A DNA stretch of 33,089 nt from Beijerinckiaceae bacterium (GTDB taxonomy: Bacteria > Pseudomonadota > Alphaproteobacteria > Rhizobiales > Beijerinckiaceae). Each line of letters opens with the position of its first letter. The first letter of the stretch is position 1. Of the stretch, positions 6,427-33,089 are shown piece by piece. The DNA is taken from NCBI GenBank assembly GCA_025459195.1, contig JALORF010000013.1:1-33089 (forward strand), in the 5' to 3' direction. Position numbers and translations under genes: made by a program. The notes beneath the pieces were generated by a model that did not search any database, was not told where the DNA came from, and saw nothing but the letters and a program-made list of their open reading frames with translations.

Positions 6427-7368
6427 TCAGACCAGATACTGCTCCGAAATCGTGGAGCCAAGCCTGTTGTTGTCATCGATGAATTCGGTGATGAACTCGT
6501 GCAGGCCGTTATCGTAAATGTCGCCCATCTTGCGGTTGGCGAGCGTGCTCAACGTCTTGCGGGCCATGCGCTGCGAAGGGCCCTGGCGGCCATAGGTTTC
6601 CCCCAGCGCATCCAGAAAGCGGCTGATGTTCTCGTAGCAACTGGCAAAGGAGCGCGGCATCTGCCGGTTGAAGATCAACAGGTCTGCGACCAGCCAGGGC
6701 TTGATCGACTCGCGGTAAACCCAGTGATAGGCGGTCAGGGCCGAGACCTCGCGCAGGATGGTGGTCCACTGGAAGTAGTCCAGAGACCCGCCGACCCGCT
6801 CTGTCTCGGGCAGCAGGACGTGATACTTGACGTCGAGGATGCGGGCGGTGTTGTCAGCGCGCTCGACATAGACTCCAAGGCGCGAGAACCAGTAGGCATC
6901 CGAGCGCAACATCGTGCGGTAGGCCGAGCCGTCGAAGGTCAGAGACAGGGTTTTGACGAACTCGATGAAACGGCCGTAGTCATCGCGCGTCAGCTTGCGG
7001 CCGTCGTATTTCTTCAGTTCCAGCCAGGCGCTGTTGAGCGCATCCCACATCTCGTAGGTGAGCGCCGTGCGCACGGCACGGGCATTGGCGCGGGCAATCT
7101 CGATGCAGTTGCGGATCGAGGAGGGATTTTCCGAGCTGAAGCACAGGAACTGGTGAACATTGGCCTCATTCGCGGTCTGGTGATGCTGGCCGAACAGTTC
7201 GTCGCAACCGGCTGTCTTGACGCAGCTTTCCCACTCCGATGCTGCGCCGCCATAGCTCGATGGCAGGTTGGAGAGCCGTGTTGTCGCTTCAAGGATCCGG
7301 GCAAGGTATTCGGCGCGCTCGACATAGCGCGAAACCCAGTAAAGACTGTCTGCGGTGCGGGAGAGCAT
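6427..7368 (-). CDS. Alpha-E domain protein (DUF403 family) of the Anbu operon
   Basis: This 313-residue protein of the all-helical alpha-E family starts with the family's typical MLSRTADSLYWVSRYVERAE. The frame extends 32 codons upstream, but those codons overlap the ATP-grasp gene and do not resemble the family. The ATG at 7368 has an AGGA about 8 nt upstream and follows the ATP-grasp stop by 16 nt. Alpha-E proteins are genetically linked to circularly permuted ATP-grasp enzymes and are thought to act with them in making an unknown peptide or peptide-like product. No catalytic residues are established for the family, and none are claimed here. Its position between ATP-grasp and transglutaminase-like genes is the usual order. 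Confidence 0.92.
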   Translation of the reverse strand: MLSRTADSLYWVSRYVERAEYLARILEATTRLSNLPSSYGGAASEWESCVKTAGCDELFGQHHQTANEANVHQFLCFSSENPSSIRNCIEIARANARAVRTALTYEMWDALNSAWLELKKYDGRKLTRDDYGRFIEFVKTLSLTFDGSAYRTMLRSDAYWFSRLGVYVERADNTARILDVKYHVLLPETERVGGSLDYFQWTTILREVSALTAYHWVYRESIKPWLVADLLIFNRQMPRSFASCYENISRFLDALGETYGRQGPSQRMARKTLSTLANRKMGDIYDNGLHEFITEFIDDNNRLGSTISEQYLV

Positions 7369-9060: not shown

Positions 9061-12000
9061 TCAGCCGCGCTGGTCGCGCACTGCCGACAAGATGGCGTTC
9101 GCGAGCGGGGAGGCCAGCAGCGCGCCAATCTCCGGAGCCAGGACCCGGCGCCAGTTGGCGCGTTCCCGGTCGGTGCCCGGCAGGTTGATGCGGGTGGCAT
9201 CGCCGGCCAGATCATCCGCCTGGACCAACATCAGCACCGAGGGCGATGCCGCAAGGAAGTGGTGGATCTGCGCCACGGCCTGCGGCGTGAGGTCGGGTCC
9301 GTTGCCAAGGGTGACTCCGGCGCGGGCCATTGCCGCCAGCAAGGCAGCCTTTTCCATTGCACGCTCAGCCTGCAGTTCGGCTTTAAGGTGGACGGGCAAA
9401 AGGCCGAGCCCGATGATTTCCGAAAGATCGCTGCCTTGCCACCAGCCGGCCAGCGTCGGCAGATCGTGGGTGCCGACGCAAGCGGCGGCCATGGCAGGAT
9501 ATTGCGCGGGCGGCACGAAATCCTGCCCGTCGCGCTCGAGCCAGAGCACGCGATAGGAGAGGAGCTTGCGCTCGTCCATCGCGGCGCGAAAGCCATCCGG
9601 CACAGTGCCGAGGTCTTCGCCGATCACCATGCAGCGTGCGCGCTGGCTTTCCAGTGCCAGCACGGCCAGATGCGCGTCGCGGTCATAGCCGACATAGGCG
9701 CCTTCTGTGGCGGAGCCTCCGTCAGGCACCCAGAACAGGCGTTGCAAGCCCATGGCGTGGTCGATGCGCAGTGCTCCCGCATGCCGCATGTTCGCGGCCA
9801 GCAAGCGGCCAAAACTGCGATAGCCATCGCGCTCGGTTGCGAGAGGGTCCGGTGCAGGCAGGTTCCAGACCTGTCCGTTCGCTGCAAACGGATCGGGCGG
9901 CGCGCCGATCGAGACGCCGCGCGCCAGCCTGTGCTGGCAGGCCCAGGCCTCAGCCCCGTCCGGTGCCGAGCCCACGGCCAGATCGCGATACAGGCCGAGG
10001 GCAAGGCCGGTGGCTGCCGCCGCGTCGGCAAGCGCGCGCTCGCAAAGCCATTGCTGGAATTGCACAAACCGGATGTCGGCTCGATGGCCCGCCGCGAAGC
10101 TGGCGATTGCGGCCGGTTCGGCATCGCGCAGCGCTTGCGGCCATTGCTGCCACGGCTTGCCGCGCTGCTGGGCACTGATGGCTTCGAACGCGGCGAAATG
10201 GGCCAGATCGTCGCCGCCTGCGGCGATGAAGCCTGAGAACTCATCCTGAAGGGCGGCAAAAGAGCTGCCGGCTGCATGCTGCATGGCGCTGAAGGCTGCC
10301 GCCAGCATCTCGCGCTTGGCCTGCCAGATCGCTGGATAGTCGACCACGGTGCGCGCAGCGCTGGCCGTGAAAAGGGTTTCATGCCGCGCCAGCACATGCC
10401 GCAGGGCCGGAACGCTGGCGAAAGGCCCGCTGGCGAGATCAAGATAGATCGGATCGAGAAAACGCCGGTCACTCGGATGATACGGGCTGGCGCGCTCGCG
10501 GTCATGGCCGAACTGGGCATGCATCGGGTTGAGCCCGAGTGTCGCCGCCCCTTGCTCGGCAGCCATGCGGCCAAACCTGGCCAATGTGGTGAAGTCACCG
10601 ATGCCCTGATCGCCATCGCGGCGCAGGCCATAGAGGTGGGCTGCGATGCCGAAGGGGCGACGCTCCAGCCCGTCGGGCAGCCAGCAGGTGCGCGGCGCGA
10701 TGATCAGCGCGCATGTCTCCTCCGGGTGATCCTCGATGCCAAGCGTGTAGCGTCCCGCCGGCAGCGGCGGCAGGCCCACTTGGCGATGCTGGCGCGGCCT
10801 GCCATCGAGACCGCTGCGCTCATGGATGTCGCCGGTTGAGGGGGGGACCGGCAGGCGTTCAACGCTGCCATCTTCTCCTTGAAGCCGCAGCATGACCTGC
10901 CGGCCAGGCGACGGGGGCAGGGCCACGCGCAGAGGCGCATGTGCGGTGCCGATGAGGTTTAGGGGAAGTGCGCGTTCGTCACGCAGCGCCACGAGGCTTG
11001 CAAGGCTCTCACGCGCGTCTGCGGAGCTGGCTGCGGGCAGGCGCATGGCGGCCAGCAGGGCCCGCTGCACATCGGGCGTCACGGCATGATGGTGGCCCGA
11101 GACCTCCCACCAGTCCGGCGCGATGCCGGCGGCAGCGGCCAGCCGTGCCAGCAGGGCCGGGTCAGTCGGCGAGGGGCGGCGCGGGCGGGCGCTGGCCGTC
11201 TCCGTCAGGCACAGGACCGAGCGTGGTGCAACCTGCAGGGTCTCGCCCGCCGGGGTGTGATCCGCCAGCACCCAGTCATGGCTCTGCCTCGGGTCCGGCA
11301 GCACGCAGTCAACCGGTGCCTGCCCGGCATGGAGGATGACGATGGCGCGGCTGGCCCGGCTCTCATCTGGCGCGTGCAACAGGGCGATGAGCAGGCGGTT
11401 GTCCGGATCGGACCAGTCATGCTGCTGCATCGGTTGGCCGTCGGCGCGGAGCCAGGTCACATCAGGCAGGCCGCTCGCGTCCACAGGGTGGCCGGTGAGG
11501 GCTGCGTCGGCATGCAGGGCTGGCGTTGCCAGCCTGAGGCGGATCAGGCCGGCGGCGTGGGCCACCAGTTCCGTGTCGGCGTCGGTCCAATCCAGCCAGG
11601 ACAGGGCGTTGTCCTGGGCATAGGCATTGTTGTTGCCGCCCTGGCTGCGGCCCATCTCGTCGCCCATGGCGAGCATCGGCGTGCCGCGCGAGAGCAGCAA
11701 GGTTGCCAGCAACGCCCGCTGGTCTGCCGCACGCGCCGCCTGGATGGCCGCATCGGCGGTGTGGCCTTCCACGCCGTGGTTCCAGCTCAGGTTGGTGTCA
11801 GTGCCGTCGCGATTGTCCTCGCCGTTGGCCTCGTTGTGCTTGTCTGCATGGCTGACAAGGTCTGCCAGCGTGAAGCCATCATGCGCTGTGATGAAGTTGA
11901 TGCTGCGTGACACGGGGCGCTTGCGAGCCGCGAACACATCGGCCGAGCCGGCGAAGCGGGTGGCCATTTCGCCGATCATGCCAGCATCGCCGCGCCAAAA

Positions 12001-13232
12001 CCGCCGCGCTGTGTCGCGATAGCGGTCATTCCACTCGCCCCAGCCAGCGGGAAAGCGCCCGAGCTGGTAGCCGCCCATTCCGATGTCCCACGGCTCGGCG
12101 ATCAGCTTGAGCCGGCCGAGCACCGGGTCCTGGGTGATGGCGGCCAGTAGCGGGTGGTCGGAATCGAAGCCATCGGCGCGCCGCCCCAGCGTGGTGGCGA
12201 GGTCAAAACGAAACCCATGGATGCCGCCGCGCTGGGCAAAGCGCCGAAGGCTGTCCATGGCCAGGCGCAGCACGGCAGGCCGCTCCAGCGCCAGCGTGTT
12301 GCCGCAGCCGGCATCGTTGGCGTAGCGGCGCGGATCGTGGCAATCGAGCCGGTAGTAGCTCGCATTGTCGAGGCCGCGCAGCGAAACGGTGGGGCCGAGT
12401 TCATCGCCTTCGCCGCTGTGGTTCAGCACGACATCGAGCAGGGTTTCGATGCCGGCCGCTTCCAGTTTTTCGGTCGTGGCGGCGATCTCGTCCCAACCGC
12501 CAGGGGCGAGGCGCGGGTCGGGCGCACCGAAGGCCACCGGATTGTAGCCCCAGTAGTTGCTCAGACCCAGCGGGCCGAGATGGCGCTCGTCGAGCCAGGC
12601 AGCGACGGGCAGCAGCTCCACGCTGCTGATGCCGAGATCGGCCAGATGCTTCAGCGCGGCAGGATGGCCGAGGCCCGCGAAGGTGCCGCGCTTTGCTTCC
12701 GGCACCCTCGGGTGCAGTCTTGTGAAGCCACGCACATGCATCTCGTAGATCACGGTGCGGTTCCAAGGCACAGGCGCTGCCGACAACAAGGGCGCCGCGG
12801 GAGCCAGGATCACCGCCTTGGGCATGAAAGGGCCGCTGTCGGCATCATCGAAGGACAGGTCGGCGTCCGGATGTCCGATCTGGAAGCCGAACATCGACGG
12901 GTGCAGCGCAAAAGGCCGGTCGATCAGCCCGGCATGCGGATCCAGCAGCAGCTTGTGGGCATTGAAGCGGTGCCCCTCGCGCGGGGCGTGCGGCCCGTGG
13001 GCGCGCAGGCCATAGCGCATGCCTGGCCTCAGACCCTCGACATGGCCGTGAAAAACATCGCCCGTCCGCTCTGGAAGGACGATGCGGGCGGTCTCGCGAT
13101 CGGCTTCATCGAACAGGCACAGCTCGATCCGCTTGGCGTTCGCCGAGAACACGGCGACGTTTGCGCCGCCAGCATCGACAGTCACGCCAAGAGGATCAGG
13201 CGTGCCGGGCCTGAGGCGGAAACCGGAAGCCA

Positions 13233-13233
<1 letters not shown>
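9061..13233 (-). CDS. glgX-malQ: Fusion of glycogen debranching enzyme (GlgX) and 4-alpha-glucanotransferase (MalQ)
   Basis: A single 1390-residue frame joins two enzymes normally encoded separately. Residues 1 to about 670 are GlgX (CBM48 plus GH13), which removes alpha-1,6 branches from phosphorylase limit dextrin. The GH13 nucleophile Asp344 lies in GFRFDLA, the acid/base Glu380 in LIAEPWDIG, and His451-Asp452 in TAHDGFT. After a linker at about 672-690, the rest is a GH77 MalQ amylomaltase, which disproportionates maltodextrins: Asp1158 in LRIDHAMG, Glu1206 in VIGEDLG, Asp1257 in THDLPT. Both active sites look complete. The ATG shares one base with the pgm stop (TGATG), suggesting translational coupling. 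As the last gene of the operon it would turn branched dextrin into glucose and longer chains for GlgP. No stop or frameshift separates the halves. Confidence 0.95.
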
Positions 13234-23759: not shown

Positions 23760-24293
23760 ATGGCCAAGCGCTGGTACATCGTCCACGCCTACTCGAACTT
23801 CGAGAACAAGGTGCGCGATTCGATCCTCGCCCAGGCGAAGGAGCGGAGCCTCAGCACGCTGTTCGACGAGGTCATGGTTCCGACCGAGAAGGTCATGGAA
23901 GTCCGGCGTGGCCGCAAATACGAAACGGACCGCAAGTTTTTCCCCGGCTATGTGCTGGTCAAGTGCGATCTGACCGACGAGGTCTATCACCTGATCAAGA
24001 ACACGCCGAAGGTGACGGGCTTCCTCGGCGCGGACAAGTCCAAGCCGCAGCCGATTCCCGATGCCGAAGCAGAGCGCATCAAGGGGCAGGTGCAGGATGG
24101 TGTCGACCGTCCCAAGCCCACGATCATGTTCGAGGTCGGCGAGCAGGTGCGCGTGGCCGATGGCCCGTTCGCGTCGTTCAACGGCGTGGTCGAGGACGTC
24201 GATCACCCGCGCGCCCGCGTCAAGGTCGCCGTCTCGATCTTTGGCCGGGCCACTCCGGTCGAACTGGAATACAGTCAGGTCGAAAAGCTGTGA
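23760..24293 (+). CDS. nusG: Transcription termination/antitermination protein NusG
   Basis: NusG binds RNA polymerase and links it to Rho or to the leading ribosome. The 177-residue product starts with the canonical MAKRWYIVHAYSNFENKV. The N-terminal NGN domain includes FFPGYVLVKCDL, and a C-terminal KOW domain (about 125-177) includes VADGPFASFNGVVEDVD. An ATG six codons upstream (23742) is in frame but outside the conserved start. GAGGG lies about 12 nt upstream. The gene follows secE closely and precedes rplK by 191 nt. Confidence 0.97.
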   Translation: MAKRWYIVHAYSNFENKVRDSILAQAKERSLSTLFDEVMVPTEKVMEVRRGRKYETDRKFFPGYVLVKCDLTDEVYHLIKNTPKVTGFLGADKSKPQPIPDAEAERIKGQVQDGVDRPKPTIMFEVGEQVRVADGPFASFNGVVEDVDHPRARVKVAVSIFGRATPVELEYSQVEKL

Positions 24294-24484
24294 CTGTCAC
24301 GGGCAGGTGGAAAGAGGCAGTCGGCAGTTGTGAGACACTTGCCTGCCGCTGGAAGCCCACTGCCCTCACTTCGCGGGAGGCATGCCGGTTCGCCGCCGGA
24401 ACTCCATGCCGCACCGCGACCTTCAAACCGGCTTGCCGGCCCCCGCTTGGCGTTTGGGGGCGGAGCCAGATTGGGAGATGAGCC
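24294..24484 (+). promoter_or_regulatory. Leader region of rplK-rplA
   Basis: This is a 191 nt gap without a gene. It holds two hairpins: cggcag at 24322-24327 with ctgccg at 24343-24348, and gccccc at 24439-24444 with gggggc at 24456-24461. In many bacteria L1 represses this operon by binding the mRNA near the rplK start; the second hairpin lies close enough to take part, but I did not find a clear copy of the L1 site. Confidence 0.35.
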
Positions 24485-24934
24485 ATGGCGAAGAAAATCA
24501 CCGGCTACATCAAGCTCCAGGTTCCGGCAGGTGCCGCGAACCCGTCACCACCGATTGGTCCGGCTCTGGGCCAGCGCGGCCTGAACATCATGGAATTCTG
24601 CAAGGCCTTCAATGCGAAGACCGCCCAGATCGACAAGGGCACGCCGATTCCGGTCGTGATCACCGCGTTCCAGGATCGTTCGTTCACCTTCGAGATGCGC
24701 CAGCCGCCCGTGTCCTTCTTCCTGAAGAAGGCTGCCGGCCTGAAGATCGGCAAGAAGCCGGCCTCTGGCTCCAAGACCCCGGGCAAGGGCGCTCCTGCCG
24801 GCAAGATCACCGAAGCGCAGCTCGTTGAAATCGCCGAAAAGAAGATGGTCGATCTCAACTGCTCGACGGTCGAATCCGCAGTCTCCATGATCCGTGGCTC
24901 TGCCCGGGCCATGGGCCTTGAAATCGTGGCGTGA
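24485..24934 (+). CDS. rplK: 50S ribosomal protein L11
   Basis: L11 forms the GTPase-associated centre at the base of the L7/L12 stalk. The 149-residue product has the N-terminal motif [20 protein letters not shown] and the C-terminal rRNA-binding domain with [19 protein letters not shown]. It is slightly longer than the E. coli protein (142), mainly through a Gly/Lys/Ser-rich loop at about residues 90-105. The ATG follows GGGAGATGAGCC, so ribosome binding is well placed. rplA follows after 11 nt. Confidence 0.98.
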
Positions 24935-24945
24935 GGAGCTGACCG

Positions 24946-25635
<690 letters not shown>

Positions 25636-25692
25636 GGCGCAAGCCTGACCCGACGGTGCCGGCCCTGTCATGCCGGAAAGTGCCAATTCACA

Positions 25693-25722
25693 GCCTCGCA
25701 TCGTGAGATGCGGGGCTTTTTT
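25693..25722 (+). terminator. Rho-independent terminator after rplA
   Basis: gcctcgcatc (25693-25702) and gatgcggggc (25707-25716) form a 10 bp stem with one G-U pair and a GTGA tetraloop, followed directly by six T. It is the best terminator in the window and cuts rplKA off from the downstream genes. Confidence 0.9.
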
Positions 25723-25755
25723 GTGCATTTTCGCGGCTTTTGTCACAGAGCCGGC

Positions 25756-25783
25756 TTGGATTTGGCGCAATCCGTTCCATATC
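25756..25783 (+). promoter_or_regulatory. Possible promoter for nhaA
   Basis: TTGGAT at 25756-25761 and CATATC at 25778-25783 are separated by 16 nt, just downstream of the rplA terminator and about 30 nt before the nhaA start. The match is moderate and made by eye. Confidence 0.3.
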
Positions 25784-25804
25784 CGGGAAAACCCTTAATT
25801 CGAC

Positions 25805-25809
25805 AGGAG
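25805..25809 (+). promoter_or_regulatory. Ribosome binding site deciding the TTG start of nhaA
   Basis: AGGAG lies 6 nt before TTG at 25816. The longer reading frame, open from 25708, would start inside the rplA terminator, which excludes it. Confidence 0.65.
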
Positions 25810-25815
25810 CCAGCT

Positions 25816-27021
25816 TTGGCCGCTTCCCCTTCAGTATCGAGCCAGACCCCCGCAAGCGGAACGAACCCGGAGGTCGTCGGCGCCTTCGTGCTGATGGCGG
25901 CCACGGTGGCCGCGCTGATCTTCGCCAACACGGGGCTGGCGGGTGTCTACAAGGCTCTGCTCAACACGCCGATCAGTCTGGATGTGGGCAGCTTCCAGTT
26001 GGCGGATTCGCTGAAGAACTGGGTGAAGAACCTGCTTATGGCGATCTTCTTCCTGTTCGTCGGGCTGGAGATCAAGGCCGAGTTCAAGGAAGGCGCGCTG
26101 TCGGACCGCAAGCGCGCCATCCTGCCCTTCGCCGGCGCTGTGGGTGGTATGGCCGCGCCGGCGGCCATCTTCCTGGCGCTGGCAGGTTCAAACCCGGCTT
26201 ATGTCAATGGCTGGGCCATCCCTTCGGCCACCGACATCGCCTTCGCGGTCGGGGTGGTGGCGCTGCTCGGCTCGCGCGTGCCACCGGCGCTCAAGGCCTT
26301 CCTGCTGGCCGTTGCCGTGATCGACGATCTTGGCGCCATCCTCATCATTGCGGTGTTCTACACCGCCCAGATCAGTCTTGGGGCTCTGGGCCTTGCAGCG
26401 CTCGCCATTGTCGCGCTCGGCCTGCTCAACCTGCGTGGCGTGACACGGATCATGCCCTACATGCTGGTCGGCGTCGCGCTGTGGCTGTTCGTGCTCAAGT
26501 CCGGCGTCAATCCGACGCTCGCGGGCGTGATCACGGCGCTGTTCGTGCCGATGCGCAGCGCCGATGACAGCGTCCATCCTCTGCATGATCTGGTCGGGAA
26601 GCTGAAGTTCAGCGTCGTGTTCCTGATCATGCCGATCTTCGCCTTTGCCAACGCGGGCGTGCCGCTGACTGGCCTTGGGCTCGGCGACCTGCTCCATCCG
26701 GTCACGTCGGGCATCGCGCTTGGCCTTGTTGTCGGCAAGCCCATCGGCATCACGCTGCTGGTCTATCTTGCGGTGCGTTCCGGGCTCGCGCGGCTGCCGG
26801 ACAAGTCCACCTGGCTTCAGGTGGTTGGGGTGGCTTTCATCGCCGGCATCGGGTTCACCATGAGCCTGTTCATCGGTGTCCTCGCCTTTGGCGACGGCGA
26901 CCTGATGAACAAGGTGCGGCTTGGTGTTCTGCTGGGCTCGACCCTGGCGGCGCTTGCCGGCGTGGCTGTCCTGATTGCTGCCGCGCGGAAGGCTCCGGAG
27001 CCTGCGCTGTCACGGGCCTGA
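25816..27021 (+). CDS. nhaA: Na+/H+ antiporter NhaA
   Basis: NhaA exports Na+ (or Li+) in exchange for protons across the inner membrane and supports growth under salt and alkaline stress. From the TTG at 25816 the protein has 401 residues (E. coli 388). The ion-binding acidic residues are visible: Asp in IPSATDIAFAVGV, and the pair in AVAVIDDLGAI corresponding to E. coli Asp163-Asp164. The N-terminal FFLFVGLEIKAEF and C-terminal AGIGFTMSLFIG segments are typical, and about 12 hydrophobic spans can be counted. It is preceded by the rplA terminator and followed after 66 nt by another cation antiporter, suggesting a small ion-homeostasis unit placed within the ribosomal cluster. Confidence 0.95.
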   Translation: MAASPSVSSQTPASGTNPEVVGAFVLMAATVAALIFANTGLAGVYKALLNTPISLDVGSFQLADSLKNWVKNLLMAIFFLFVGLEIKAEFKEGALSDRKRAILPFAGAVGGMAAPAAIFLALAGSNPAYVNGWAIPSATDIAFAVGVVALLGSRVPPALKAFLLAVAVIDDLGAILIIAVFYTAQISLGALGLAALAIVALGLLNLRGVTRIMPYMLVGVALWLFVLKSGVNPTLAGVITALFVPMRSADDSVHPLHDLVGKLKFSVVFLIMPIFAFANAGVPLTGLGLGDLLHPVTSGIALGLVVGKPIGITLLVYLAVRSGLARLPDKSTWLQVVGVAFIAGIGFTMSLFIGVLAFGDGDLMNKVRLGVLLGSTLAALAGVAVLIAAARKAPEPALSRA

Positions 27022-27087
27022 GCCTGGTCGCGGAGGGGGGCGGCGTGCCGCTCCCACTGCTGTTCATCTCCTTCGAAAGAGCCTGCC

Positions 27088-28095
27088 ATGTTGTTTGATG
27101 TTGTCTTGCCGCTTGCCGGTGGTCTGATCCTGCTGGCGGTCGGGGGGGAGTTGCTGGTGCGCGGCGCTGTTCAGGTGGCCGAGCGGCTTGGTGTCTCGCC
27201 ATTGCTGATCGGGCTGACGCTTGTCGGGTTCGGCACGTCCATGCCGGAACTGGTGACCAGCGTCCAGGCAGCCATGATTGGCTCGCCCGGCATTGCGGTC
27301 GGCAACATCGTTGGTTCCAATCTGGCCAATATCCTGCTGATCCTGGGGCTCTCGGCCATCATTTTCCCGGTGGCGGTCTCGTCAAATGCCCTGAAGCGTG
27401 ATGGCACGCTGGTCGTGCTGACGGCCATCGCCCTGACGGCTGTCGGCCTGCTCTGGAGTCTCGACCGCATTGTCGGGACGATTTTTCTGGCAGGTCTGGT
27501 CAGCTACATCGTCTTCGCCTGGCGGCAGGAACGGGTCGTCGGTGGCTTGCCTGCCGGTGAGCACACCGCTGCTTATGAAAGGGCGGAGGCGTTCGAGGAA
27601 TTGCATGCGCCGGTGCTCAAGCCCGATGCCGAGACCATCAAGGCGATTTCGATCCCGATCTCGCTGGCCATGGCGCTCGGTGGTCTTTTGCTGGTCGTGT
27701 TCGGCGGCAAGGTTTTCGTCGACGGGGCCGTCACGCTGGCTCGCAGCTTCGGCATATCCGAGACCGTGATCGGCCTGACCATCGTGGCCGTGGGCACCTC
27801 GATGCCGGAACTCATCACCTCGATCGTGGCGGCGCTGCGCAAGCATGCCGATGTGGCGCTGGGCAATATTCTCGGCTCGAATATCTACAACATTCTCGGC
27901 ATCGGCGGTGTCACGGCCCTGATCGCCCCGACCGAGGTGCCCCGGCAGATCGCCACCTTCGATAACCTTGTGATGGTCGCCATTTCCGTGTTGCTGCTGG
28001 CAATGGCCCGCACGGGCTGGAAGATCGGGCGGCTGGAAGGCGCTGTGCTGGTGGCCGGCTATGTGGCCTATGTCTGGTGGATCTGGCCCAAGTGA
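27088..28095 (+). CDS. Calcium/sodium antiporter (CaCA superfamily, YrbG-like)
   Basis: This 335-residue membrane protein has the two inverted alpha-repeats of cation/Ca2+ exchangers. Repeat 1 holds GFGTSMPELVTSVQAA with GNIVGSNLANILLILG near residues 48-88. Repeat 2 holds AVGTSMPELITSIVAA with LGNILGSNIYNILGIGG near 235-275. Each repeat carries the ion-ligating Glu in PEL. About ten hydrophobic spans are present, with a hydrophilic loop at about 150-180. The bacterial family exchanges Ca2+ for Na+ or H+, and the substrate here is inferred. Its end touches the start region of the SDR gene, so co-expression with it is likely. Confidence 0.92.
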   Translation: MLFDVVLPLAGGLILLAVGGELLVRGAVQVAERLGVSPLLIGLTLVGFGTSMPELVTSVQAAMIGSPGIAVGNIVGSNLANILLILGLSAIIFPVAVSSNALKRDGTLVVLTAIALTAVGLLWSLDRIVGTIFLAGLVSYIVFAWRQERVVGGLPAGEHTAAYERAEAFEELHAPVLKPDAETIKAISIPISLAMALGGLLLVVFGGKVFVDGAVTLARSFGISETVIGLTIVAVGTSMPELITSIVAALRKHADVALGNILGSNIYNILGIGGVTALIAPTEVPRQIATFDNLVMVAISVLLLAMARTGWKIGRLEGAVLVAGYVAYVWWIWPK

Positions 28096-28103
28096 CGGCT
28101 GCA

Positions 28104-28925
28104 ATGGCAGCCACAATGCCCAGCGGCGCGGTTGTGGCCCTGCGCCCTGTGACAGTGATCACAGGGGCGTCGAGCGGGATCGGCCGCGAACTTGCCTTGC
28201 TGGCGGCGAAAGAGGGTGAGGTTCTGCTGCTCGGGCGCAACGAGGCTGGCCTGGCCGATGTCGCGCGGGCCATCGGGGCTGCCGGCGGGCGAGCCAGCCT
28301 GCTGGTGTCCGATGGCTCGGCTCCGGATGCGGTGCCGGCGATCATGGCGCACCTTGCTCGCCATGGCATGGTCTGCGACCAGCTCGTCAACAATGCAGGC
28401 ATCGGCTTTGTCGGGCTGGCCGATGCGCTTGCGCCCGACGCCCAGATGGCCTGCGTCGATCTCAACGTGCGCTTCGCGACAGCGCTGGCCCTGGCCGTCC
28501 TGCCAGGCATGCTGGCGCAGGGCAGGGGCGGTATCCTCAATGTCGGCTCGGTCGCCGGCTTCCTGCCGGGGCCTGGGATGACGGTGTATTATGCCACAAA
28601 GGCCTACCTGCGGTCGCTCAGCGAAGGGCTCTGGCACGAGGTCGCGGGCAGGGGGGTCCGGATCACGCTGCTCAGCCCCGGCCCCGTCAATACGCGCTTT
28701 CTGGAGCGTGCCACAGGCGGAGCCCGTGCCTCGGAAGCGACCCTGTTCCATGTGGATGTGCCGCGCGTCGCGCAGCAGGGCTGGGAGGGCTTCCGCGCCG
28801 GTCGTGCGCATGTGATTCCGGGTCTGGCCAACCGGTTGGTGCTCATGCTTGCGCCGTTTCTGCCGCGCAAGGCGCTCGGTGCCATGATCTTCAGGCGGCA
28901 AACGGCACGCCGTGGCGCGGCCTGA
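28104..28925 (+). CDS. Short-chain dehydrogenase/reductase (SDR family)
   Basis: This is a classical SDR of about 273 residues: the cofactor motif TGASSGIG near the N-terminus, NNAG, the catalytic Ser in LNVGSVAGF and the YxxxK motif in YYATKAY, all in proper order. The fold uses NAD(P)H to reduce or oxidise an unknown substrate; the sequence does not reveal which. The PGPVNTRF segment after the active site is typical. The start is uncertain: a GTG at 28077 would overlap the antiporter gene by 19 nt, and ATGs at 28104 and 28116 are alternatives; none has a good Shine-Dalgarno, which suggests coupling to the antiporter gene. No functional link with the antiporters is evident. Confidence 0.88.
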   Translation: MAATMPSGAVVALRPVTVITGASSGIGRELALLAAKEGEVLLLGRNEAGLADVARAIGAAGGRASLLVSDGSAPDAVPAIMAHLARHGMVCDQLVNNAGIGFVGLADALAPDAQMACVDLNVRFATALALAVLPGMLAQGRGGILNVGSVAGFLPGPGMTVYYATKAYLRSLSEGLWHEVAGRGVRITLLSPGPVNTRFLERATGGARASEATLFHVDVPRVAQQGWEGFRAGRAHVIPGLANRLVLMLAPFLPRKALGAMIFRRQTARRGAA

Positions 28926-29373
28926 GCCCGATTGCGCGGAAATGTCAATTATGTCCTTGGCAAACCGGTTCGTGTTCGCTAAGTGAGCCTCATTCCAGAT
29001 GACATTGGTGTGGCAACGCATCATGTTGGAAGCAGACAAGCAATTGTTTGCAGACCGGGCCAGCGAGCGAAAGGGTGACCTTTCGAACGGTGGTCCGTTG
29101 TCCTGTCCGAGACTGCTGGTGCTGCGCAAGCGGCTTAATCAATCAAGGCCACATTCTGGCCTTTTGGCCTGCATAGACGGGTGAGAACGGATTTTTCGGG
29201 GTGAAGAGCCCCTTGTGTCGGTTCGAACCATCACCTGAACACGCGTTTTGCGAATTCAGGGGGCAGGGCGTTGAGCGTCGTCCCGAAAGGACGTCGTGGC
29301 AAACGCCGCGATGTGCAGGCGGGACGGCTAACTTGAGCCGGCGGGGAGACCCGCCAAACCGGAGAGAGCCCAA
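28926..29373. promoter_or_regulatory. Long intergenic region before rplJ
   Basis: 448 nt with no convincing gene. A candidate promoter is TTGGCA (28957-28962) with TAAGTG (28980-28985) at 17 nt spacing, of low quality. A small hairpin aaggcc/ggcctt (29145-29150 with 29158-29163) followed by T may end the SDR transcript. The last 110 nt hold two hairpins listed separately and most likely form the L10 leader. Because the rplA transcript terminates upstream, rplJ-rplL-rpoB must be expressed from a promoter here or from read-through of the nhaA unit. Confidence 0.45.
29267..29307 (+). promoter_or_regulatory. Candidate L10 leader (autoregulatory mRNA structure)
   Basis: ggcgtt (29267-29272) pairs with aacgcc (29302-29307) and encloses an inner stem cgtcc (29279-29283) with ggacg (29289-29293), leaving an asymmetric internal loop. 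A second hairpin, ggcggg/cccgcc with a GAGA loop (29340-29355), lies nearer the rplJ start. L10 (with L7/L12) is known to bind such a bulged stem in its own mRNA to repress translation. Position and shape fit; the binding motif is not verified. Confidence 0.4.
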
Positions 29374-29801
29374 GTGGATCGTTCGCAAAAACGCGAAGCC
29401 GTGGCGGAACTGAACGAGGTCTTCAAGACCAACGCAGTTGTCGTCGTGGCCCACTACGCAGGCCTGACCGTTGCCGACATGCAGAAGCTCCGTCGCGAGA
29501 TGGGCAAAGCTGGCGGCACCGTGAAGGTCGCGAAGAACCGCCTGGCCAAGATCGCTCTCGAAGGCACGGATGCAGCCTCGATCGGAAACTTGTCATCCTT
29601 GGCGGTGCGATGGGCGCGACCGCCCTGAATGCGGACAGTGTCAAGGCGCTCGCCACGATGCCGTCCCTCGATGAACTGCGCGCCAAGCTCCTTGGCCTCC
29701 TGGTCGCTCCTGCGACCAAGATCGCGCAGCTCTCGACCGCACCGGCTGCCAAGCTGGCGCGCGTTTTCGGGGCCTATGCCAAGCGAGACGAAGCGGCCTG
29801 A
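29374..29801 (+). pseudogene. rplJ: 50S ribosomal protein L10, broken by an apparent internal deletion and frameshift
   Basis: L10 anchors L7/L12 dimers to the 50S stalk. A normal alphaproteobacterial L10 has about 172 residues. Here the GTG-started frame (GGAGAGAG upstream) gives a good N-terminal half to about residue 70 ([20 protein letters not shown]), then runs out of frame to a TGA at 29626-29628. The C-terminal half resumes in another frame from about 29586 ([17 protein letters not shown]) to TGA at 29801. The two halves total about 141 residues; the central stretch usually containing KGPTVIAYS-like sequence is missing. This fits a deletion of roughly 90-100 nt, not a multiple of three. 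A 63-codon frame starting at ATG 29610 could in principle make the L12-binding tail separately. Artefact or true lesion cannot be told apart here. Confidence 0.88.
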
Positions 29802-29855
29802 TGGCTACCTGAACCTGAACCCAAAAGTTCAAACTGACACACAAGGAAATGTGAC

Positions 29856-30239
<384 letters not shown>

Positions 30240-30244
30240 GCTTG

Positions 30245-30263
30245 CCGGCATGATGCCGGTTTT
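30245..30263 (+). terminator. Weak hairpin with short T-run after rplL
   Basis: ccggca (30245-30250) pairs with tgccgg (30254-30259) across a 3 nt loop and is followed by TTTT, starting 6 nt after the rplL stop. With a stem of only 6 bp it is probably a partial terminator or attenuator lowering rpoB expression relative to rplL. Confidence 0.45.
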
Positions 30264-30281
30264 CTGACACAGTTGCGTAAC

Positions 30282-30309
30282 GGCCCTGGGGCGAGACCCC
30301 GGGGCCTTT
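30282..30309 (+). terminator. Strong hairpin in the rplL-rpoB gap (attenuator or processing site)
   Basis: ggccctgggg (30282-30291) and ccccggggcc (30297-30306) form a 10 bp stem with one G-U pair and a CGAGA loop, followed by only TTT. In E. coli the same gap contains an attenuator and an RNase III site that set the ratio of ribosomal protein to RNA polymerase subunits; a similar role is inferred. The remaining bases to the rpoB start show no gene. Confidence 0.5.
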
Positions 30310-30462
30310 ACGGCGTTGGAGGCCTGCCCGTTGGCTGGCCCGCAGCTTCATCGACCACAGACATACGGCGCGCGGCAGCGCCGGGCGTCTGACCTGAGAG
30401 CCTCCGGACAACCGTCCGGCGACGACTTTCAGGTCAGCCGTTAGCGAAAAGCGAGGAACCAC

Positions 30463-33089
30463 ATGGCCAACACGCTCCAGGGTCGCAGGCGTATCCGCAA
30501 GTTCTTCGGCAAGATCAAGGAAGTCATCCAGATGCCGAACCTCATCGAGGTTCAGAAGGCGTCGTATGACCAGTTCCTGCTTGTCGACGAGCCCAAGGGC
30601 GGGCGCCCCGACGAAGGTCTCCAGTCTGTCTTCCGGTCGGTGTTCCCGATCTCGGATTTCTCTGGGGCTTCGATGCTGGAGTTCGTGAAGTACACGTTCG
30701 AAGCGCCGAAGTATGATGTCGACGAGTGCCGCCAGCGCGGCATCACGTTCGCTGCCCCGCTGAAGGTGACCTTGCGCCTGATCGTGTTCGATATCGACCC
30801 TGATACCCAGGCCAAGTCGATCAAGGACATCAAGGAGCAGGACGTCTACATGGGCGACATGCCGCTCATGACCGACAACGGCACCTTCATCGTCAACGGC
30901 ACCGAGCGCGTCATCGTCAGCCAGATGCACCGCTCGCCCGGCGTGTTCTTCGACCATGACAAGGGCAAGACCCATTCGTCCGGCAAGCTGCTGTTCGCAG
31001 CGCGCATCATTCCGTATCGCGGCTCCTGGCTCGACATCGAATTCGACGCCAAGGACGTGGTGCATGCCCGCATCGACCGCAAGCGCAAGCTGCCGGTGAC
31101 GTCGCTGTTCTATGCGCTTGGCATGGATGGCGAGGAAATCCTCAACCGGTTCTATGGCCGGATCGTGTTCGAGCGTCACAAGGATGCCTGGCGCATTCCG
31201 TTCGAAGCCGAGCGCATGAAGGGCTACAAGGCCACCGTCGACCTGATCAATGCCGACACCGGCGAAGTCATCGTCGAGGTTGGCAAGAAGCTGGTGGCCC
31301 GTCAGGCCCGCCTGCTGGCCGAGAAGGGACTGAAGTTCCTGCGCGCCACGGACGAGGATCTGATCAGCCAGTATGTGGCCGAGGACATGGTCAACCCGCA
31401 GACCGGCGAAATCTACGCCGAAGCGGGCGACGAAATCTCGGAAAAGCTGCTGAAGGCGCTGACCGATGCGGGCTTCGACGAGATCCCCGTGCTCGATATC
31501 GATCACATGACGATCGGGCCGTATATCCGCAACACGCTGAATGTCGATAAGAACTCCTCCCGCGAGGAAGCGCTGTTCGACATTTACCGCGTCATGCGTC
31601 CAGGCGAGCCGCCGACGCTCGAGTCCGCGCAGAACATGTTCCAGTCCCTGTTCTTCGACTCCGAGCGCTACGATCTGTCGGCCGTGGGCCGGGTCAAGAT
31701 GAACATGCGCCTCGACCTCGACGCCGAGGACACGGTGCGCATCCTGCGCAAGGAAGACATCCTGGCCGTGGCCAAGGCGCTGGTTGATCTGCGCGACGGC
31801 AAGGGCGAAATCGACGACATCGACCATCTCGGCAACCGGCGCGTTCGCTCGGTGGGCGAGCTGATGGAAAACCAGTATCGCCTGGGCCTGCTGCGCATGG
31901 AGCGCGCCATCAAGGAGCGCATGAGCTCCGTCGACATCGACACCGTGATGCCGCAGGATCTGATCAACGCCAAGCCGGCGGCGGCAGCCGTGCGCGAGTT
32001 CTTCGGCTCGTCGCAGCTTTCGCAGTTCATGGACCAGACCAATCCACTGTCGGAAGTCACCCACAAGCGCCGTCTCTCGGCACTGGGACCGGGCGGCCTG
32101 ACGCGCGAGCGCGCTGGCTTCGAAGTGCGTGACGTGCATCCGACGCACTATGGCCGCATCTGCCCCATCGAGACGCCGGAAGGCCCGAACATCGGCCTGA
32201 TCAACTCACTCGCCACTTTTGCGCGGGTGAACAAGTATGGCTTCATCGAGACCCCGTTCCGCAAGGTGCGCGACAGCCAGGTGACCAGCGAGGTCGTCTA
32301 TCTCTCTGCCATGGAAGAGGCCAAGCACAACGTTGCCCAGGCCGATGCCAGCATGGACAAGAACGGCAAGCTGACCGAAGACCTGATCGTCTGCCGTCAC
32401 GCCGGTGAGGTCATCGTGGTTCCGGTCGACAAGGTCGACCTGATGGAAGTTTCGCCCAAGCAGCTCGTGTCGGTCGCGGCAGCGCTCATCCCGTTCCTTG
32501 AGAACGACGACGCGAACCGTGCGCTGATGGGCTCCAACATGCAGCGTCAGGCCGTGCCGCTGGTCCGCGCCGATGCGCCCTTCGTGGGCACCGGCATGGA
32601 AAGCGTCGTGGCGCGCGATTCAGGTGCCGCGATTGCAGCACGCCGCGCGGGCATCATCGACCAGATCGATGCCACCCGTATCGTGGTGCGCGCCACCGAA
32701 GAGACGGACCCGACCAAGCCGGGCGTCGACATCTACCGGATGATGAAGTTCCAGCGCTCGAACCAGTCCACCTGCATCAACCAGCGGCCTCTGGTGCGTG
32801 TCGGCGACATCGTGAAGAAGGGCGACATCATTGCCGACGGTCCGTCGACCGATCTCGGCGAGTTGGCGCTCGGCCGCAACGTGCTCGTCGCGTTCATGCC
32901 ATGGAATGGCTACAACTTCGAAGATTCGATCCTGCTGAGCGAGAAGATCGTCTCGGAAGACGTGTTCACCTCGATCCACATCGAGGAGTTCGAGGTCATG
33001 GCCCGTGACACCAAGCTCGGCCCTGAGGAAATCACCCGCGACATTCCGAATGTGGCGGAAGAAGCCCTCAAGAACCTCGACGAAGCCGG
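30463..33089 (+). CDS. rpoB: DNA-directed RNA polymerase subunit beta (3' end cut by window)
   Basis: The start ATG follows GCGAGGAACCAC and the frame is open without interruption to the window end, giving about 875 of roughly 1380 residues. The N-terminus [18 protein letters not shown] is typical for alphaproteobacteria, and [19 protein letters not shown] lies near residue 140. The rifampicin region is intact, [18 protein letters not shown] then LSALGPGG. Asp524, His534 and Ser539 correspond to E. coli Asp516, His526 and Ser531 and carry the susceptible residues. The conserved [20 protein letters not shown] follows. It lies 223 nt after rplL, with two hairpins between. rpoC would be expected downstream, outside the window. 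Confidence 0.98.

Follow-up and report, generated by a model that had tools for sequence, protein, structure and literature searches.

The gene for ribosomal protein L10 (rplJ) in the genome studied here is interrupted by an out-of-frame hole of 91 nt. This observation is confirmed, and sequence comparison with relatives makes it highly probable that the hole is a local mistake in a fragmented draft assembly rather than the mark of an organism with a broken L10. The window, i.e. the whole stretch of 33089 nt that was analysed, is identical with contig C60 of a draft that comprises 3.23 Mb in 253 contigs, is scored 96.73% complete and, judged from its fragmentation and its neighbours, is probably itself a MAG. 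The relevant features of the window are the following.

24485..24934, + strand: rplK (L11), intact; PF03946 and PF00298
24946..25635, + strand: rplA (L1), open frame; full match to the L1 profile PF00687
29374..29585, + strand: 5′ part of rplJ; PF00466 positions 1-71 and alignment to intact relatives
29585..29586, + strand: junction, 91 nt absent in comparison with all measurable genomes of the genus
29586..29801, + strand: 3′ part of rplJ, residues 102-172 and the stop codon in another frame, including ATG 29610
29856..30239, + strand: rplL (L7/L12), intact, 127 aa; PF00542 and PF16320
30463..33089, + strand: 5′ part of rpoB, in frame and cut by the contig end

The 5′ part of rplJ starts with GTG at 29374 and comprises L10 residues 1-70 plus two bases of the next codon. 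Beyond 29585 this first frame runs on out of frame to a TGA stop at 29626-29628. The resulting ORF (29374..29628) matches the Ribosomal_L10 profile PF00466 at positions 1-71 of 100 with 74.3 bits (cut-off 22.8). It is this 5′ piece only that gives a match above the cut-off; positions 72-100 have no counterpart in the ORF, and the complete globular domain (profile 1-100) is not encoded. By tblastn and alignment, the 71 residues encoded by 29586..29798 are identical to residues 102-172 of L10 in the relative G030. The C-terminal part of L10, which carries L7/L12, thus appears to be present but in the other frame. In G030, rplJ is a single frame of 172 codons, while no such frame is found here and the gene is divided over two. 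In the window, the two halves are 91 nt closer together than in G030 and in two other relatives, G033 and G074. Base 29588, beside the junction, differs from all three, which is compatible with either a changed base or filler at the join.

In a DNA search of 67 genomes of the genus, 65 gave a match, including the one under study, and 62 of the 66 others had matching pieces on both sides of the break. All 62 show an excess of exactly 91 nt at 29585/29586. The distance was not measurable in four genomes: the sequence of G080 breaks off inside rplJ, the only match in G031 is weak and lies elsewhere, and neither G079 nor G089 gave a match. An intermediate state of rplJ was not found among the genus genomes examined. 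On the protein level, PF00466 matched in 59 of 61 genomes, and the 58 others besides the one under study reach at least profile position 98 in open frames 172 to 307 aa long. The drafts G031 and G054, scored 92% and 99% complete, gave neither an L10 nor an L7/L12 match, and therefore the rplJL operon is probably absent from these drafts. The 30 residues opposite the missing ones are carried by 142 of 142 full-length L10 records (109 distinct proteins). These 142, among which the loci of some genomes are repeated, were drawn from 183 records, of which 151 match by tblastn. Nine matching records are shorter than full length: the window and four further loci from its contig, three records truncated at contig ends, and locus L086, which has its own frame break. 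The preliminary description had claimed an rplJ gene broken by an out-of-frame internal deletion, with a left half to about residue 70, a right half from about base 29586 in a different frame, and about 30 central residues or 90-100 nt absent. It is borne out on all these points, and the alignment with close relatives that it had proposed for sizing the gap gave 30 residues and 91 nt. It was also right that frameshifting alone cannot restore the centre of the protein: since the 91 nt are absent, no frame change yields residues 72-101, and a programmed frameshift cannot give the whole protein.

Among the measurable genomes of the genus, the hole is seen only in the draft under study; outside the genus, the MAG L086 (Ga0077556) has a different hole. 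Measured against G030, its rplJ is out of frame and lacks 28 nt at about 2274-2280. To within about 3 nt, the right edges of that hole and of the one in the window meet the codon boundary before Leu103, which is probably a coincidence. For the order, PF00466 matched in 271 of 297 genomes, the weakest match being that of G300 (profile 35-100, cut by the contig end). Match places are listed for only part of these genomes, and a break such as the one in L086 would hardly show up with the profile; no rate of broken L10 is therefore given.

Both rplJ halves still look like parts of one coding gene at the sequence level. Compared with G030, 11 of 142 codons differ, all of them synonymously (2/70 in the left half, 9/72 in the right half). 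The comparison with G033 revealed 7 synonymous and 1 non-synonymous codons, and that with G074 25 synonymous and 3 non-synonymous codons. Only three changes, again all synonymous, are unique to this genome where the three relatives agree. This number (about 0.02 under neutrality, from codon fractions) is too small for dating the break. The codon count for the G030 rplL gene was left out because it is spoilt by a frame break in that gene. The left half differs from G033 at 0 of 210 bases, which prompted a check for a chimera of two strains. In the block 29391-29540 (150 columns), all nine pairs are at least 92.7% identical, including pairs without this genome, and the identity of the left half is therefore no sign of a chimera.

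The surroundings of rplJ are those of the uL10 gene in the rplKA-rplJL-rpoBC group. Both halves of rplJ, its position upstream of rplL and rpoB and its GTG start codon are shared with G030, G033 and G074; compared with an intact uL10 gene (PF00466), the one in the window lacks 91 nt, has its halves out of frame and leaves profile positions 72-100 unmatched. The expected order of rplJ, rplL and rpoB is preserved. As to the earlier statement that rplL and rpoB are intact, this holds for rplL, while for rpoB an open frame is seen for the first 875 codons only, the contig ending inside the gene at 33089, 3.5 kb beyond the rplJ break. The rest of rpoB and rpoC had no match in the draft itself, as searched with a 20-kb query from G074 holding both genes (40 of 286 first-look candidates scored); apart from C60, this query matched only 46 bp beyond rpoC. 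The interval between rplA and rplJ (25708-28925) holds a Na+/H+ antiporter gene, a gene of the Na/Ca exchanger type and an ORF that was classed by eye as SDR-like. The Na/Ca exchanger-type gene is absent at the corresponding site of G033, where about 155 nt are found in place of about 1.1 kb. An Rfam scan of 24000..31000 gave two matches, both below the gathering scores and taken as chance. Elsewhere in the window, a 1390-aa ORF on the minus strand (9061-13233) joins CBM48 and alpha-amylase matches to a GH77 4-alpha-glucanotransferase and adjoins other glycogen genes.

Several lines of evidence favour an assembly error. The 91 nt are present in 62 of 62 measurable relatives and the corresponding residues in all full-length L10 records, and both halves differ from G030 by synonymous changes only. 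The draft itself holds neither a second L10 gene (none at E up to 10 in a draft 96.7% complete) nor a stray copy of the missing segment: 24 matches to this segment in the bin consist of the two flanks on C60 and 22 chance-level matches of 14-37 nt. Furthermore, the draft is fragmented at this very place, with C60 ending in rpoB and the remainder unmatched, and comparable breaks occur in other drafts, namely in rplL of G030 and in rplJ of L086. In G030, rplL (L062, about 6989-6992) lacks 1 nt, which breaks its frame, and an adjacent base is changed; rplL is intact in the window and in G033. Finally, two biological routes to a deletion were tried and rejected. For replication slippage between repeats, the 40-nt flanks on either side of the gap were compared in G030, and no direct repeat of at least 6 nt was found. 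For Ku-based end joining, no Ku match was obtained in the draft; out of 14 genomes, the control search was positive only in Bacillus subtilis. A real deletion would thus not be readily explained by slippage or by Ku end joining. Among the options that the preliminary description had left open, an assembly that dropped about 90-100 nt is, on these comparisons, the best supported, the size now being 91 nt. The bacterium, which is probably Bosea-like, would accordingly possess an ordinary rplJ gene; the hole may have arisen from a wrong join or gap closing, or alternatively from a rare or chimeric assembly path chosen at rplJ. Both the absence of the gap from the cells and the origin of the wrong join are what we infer from this evidence. 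Most likely, the organism produces a normal, full-length L10.

Some points count against an assembly error. A join without shared overlap is not the commonest error of assemblers. In addition, the draft is not of poor quality throughout: in up to 73 kb compared, rplJ is the only gene with a clear frame break between well-conserved halves on the side of this genome. The scan covered the window, 20 kb of contig C245 and 20 kb of contig C42, where these are covered by G030 and G033 stretches, and its six tests comprised 29, 36, 33, 40, 41 and 43 ORFs of the relatives, real and chance ORFs alike. Nine ORFs were split over frames, two of which are rplJ itself. The others, sorted by eye, are antisense or overlapping ORFs, ORF ends or the G030 rplL break; this sorting includes two ORFs on C245 (near 600-1480 and 2170-2890) that are only roughly classed. 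Other such errors of the same draft were thus not seen in the compared parts. A further point comes from the literature. According to a study on MAGs, ribosomal protein genes are missing from them mainly through binning and not through assembly, and contigs with such genes are longer than average (PMC9723686). Our case resembles this picture in that a ribosomal protein gene appears defective in a draft more than 90% complete and the rest of rpoB and rpoC is unmatched, but whole genes are lost there whereas the hole here is internal, which binning does not explain. In favour of an assembly error, on the other hand, another study concludes that a large share of the pseudogenes called in assemblies are genuine genes (PMC11017572). 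The present gene, interrupted in a single draft but complete in related genomes, fits that picture; MAGs, however, were by the authors' own statement not assessed there, and the hole here is 91 nt and not a single-base indel.

The main rival explanation is a real deletion carried by some cells. A recent loss of 91 nt in part of the population or in one strain may have been taken into the consensus, the carriers being sick, short-lived or living beside cells with an intact gene. The clean junction and the lack of any other clear frame break in the compared sequence speak for this, and the small number of changes since the break is what a recent loss would leave. However, L10 is normally needed for growth, and a simple origin is missing, with no Ku match and no flanking repeat of at least 6 nt. 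Moreover, rplJ is kept in JCVI-syn3.0, as stated in an endosymbiont study (PMC9035817). L10 is nevertheless not indispensable everywhere, as the same study omits rplJ from its minimal translation set, which concerns extremely reduced genomes. Taken together, we regard a real, recent deletion as unlikely.

It is far less probable that the deletion is fixed in the species and that L10 is supplied by a second gene in the missing few per cent of the draft. A completeness of 96.7% and the unmatched rest of rpoB and rpoC leave room for such a gene, so that the absence of a second L10 is not proof. Nevertheless, the second copy considered in the preliminary description was searched for in the draft and not found, as no second PF00466 match was obtained there, and exactly one PF00466 match was found in 59 of 59 genomes and in 270 of 271 (G227 has two).

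Equally improbable is a functional split or shortened L10, made up of an rRNA-binding N-terminal piece and a C-terminal piece started at ATG 29610, or produced by a -1 frameshift. Both pieces retain their sequence, and ATG 29610 precedes the stop of the first frame at 29626-29628, so that coupled re-initiation is conceivable. However, the start at this ATG that had been suggested earlier gained no positive support: the codon corresponds to an old internal Met that also lies inside L10 of the intact relatives (M110, invariant in 30 aligned L10 proteins) and not to a new start. No good slippery heptamer was seen by eye at the junction, and the genus genomes examined show no intermediate state. 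The absent part also holds predicted elements of the globular domain. In the fold predicted for an intact relative from a 30-sequence alignment, at low confidence (mean pLDDT 61.1, pTM 0.48), it comprises the last part of helix 66-73 together with strand 78-83 and helix 88-99, and the N-terminal piece, if real, would therefore lose part of the sheet. The best solved L10 chain aligns to residues 3-167 of the intact relative, the absent part included. A few narrow literature searches gave no title that deals with an L10 in two pieces or with an internal deletion. That a free-living alphaproteobacterium should hold its L7/L12 stalk with a two-piece L10 lacking about 30 globular residues is most improbable of all.

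If the hole were real, it would mean that the base of the stalk can function although L10 has lost about 30 residues of its globular part, a finding that ribosome specialists would not expect. As an artefact, which is the reading favoured here, it calls for caution, as a universal gene may look broken in a draft scored 96.7% complete. This caution is sharpened by the sister draft G030, which has a break of its own in the next gene, rplL.
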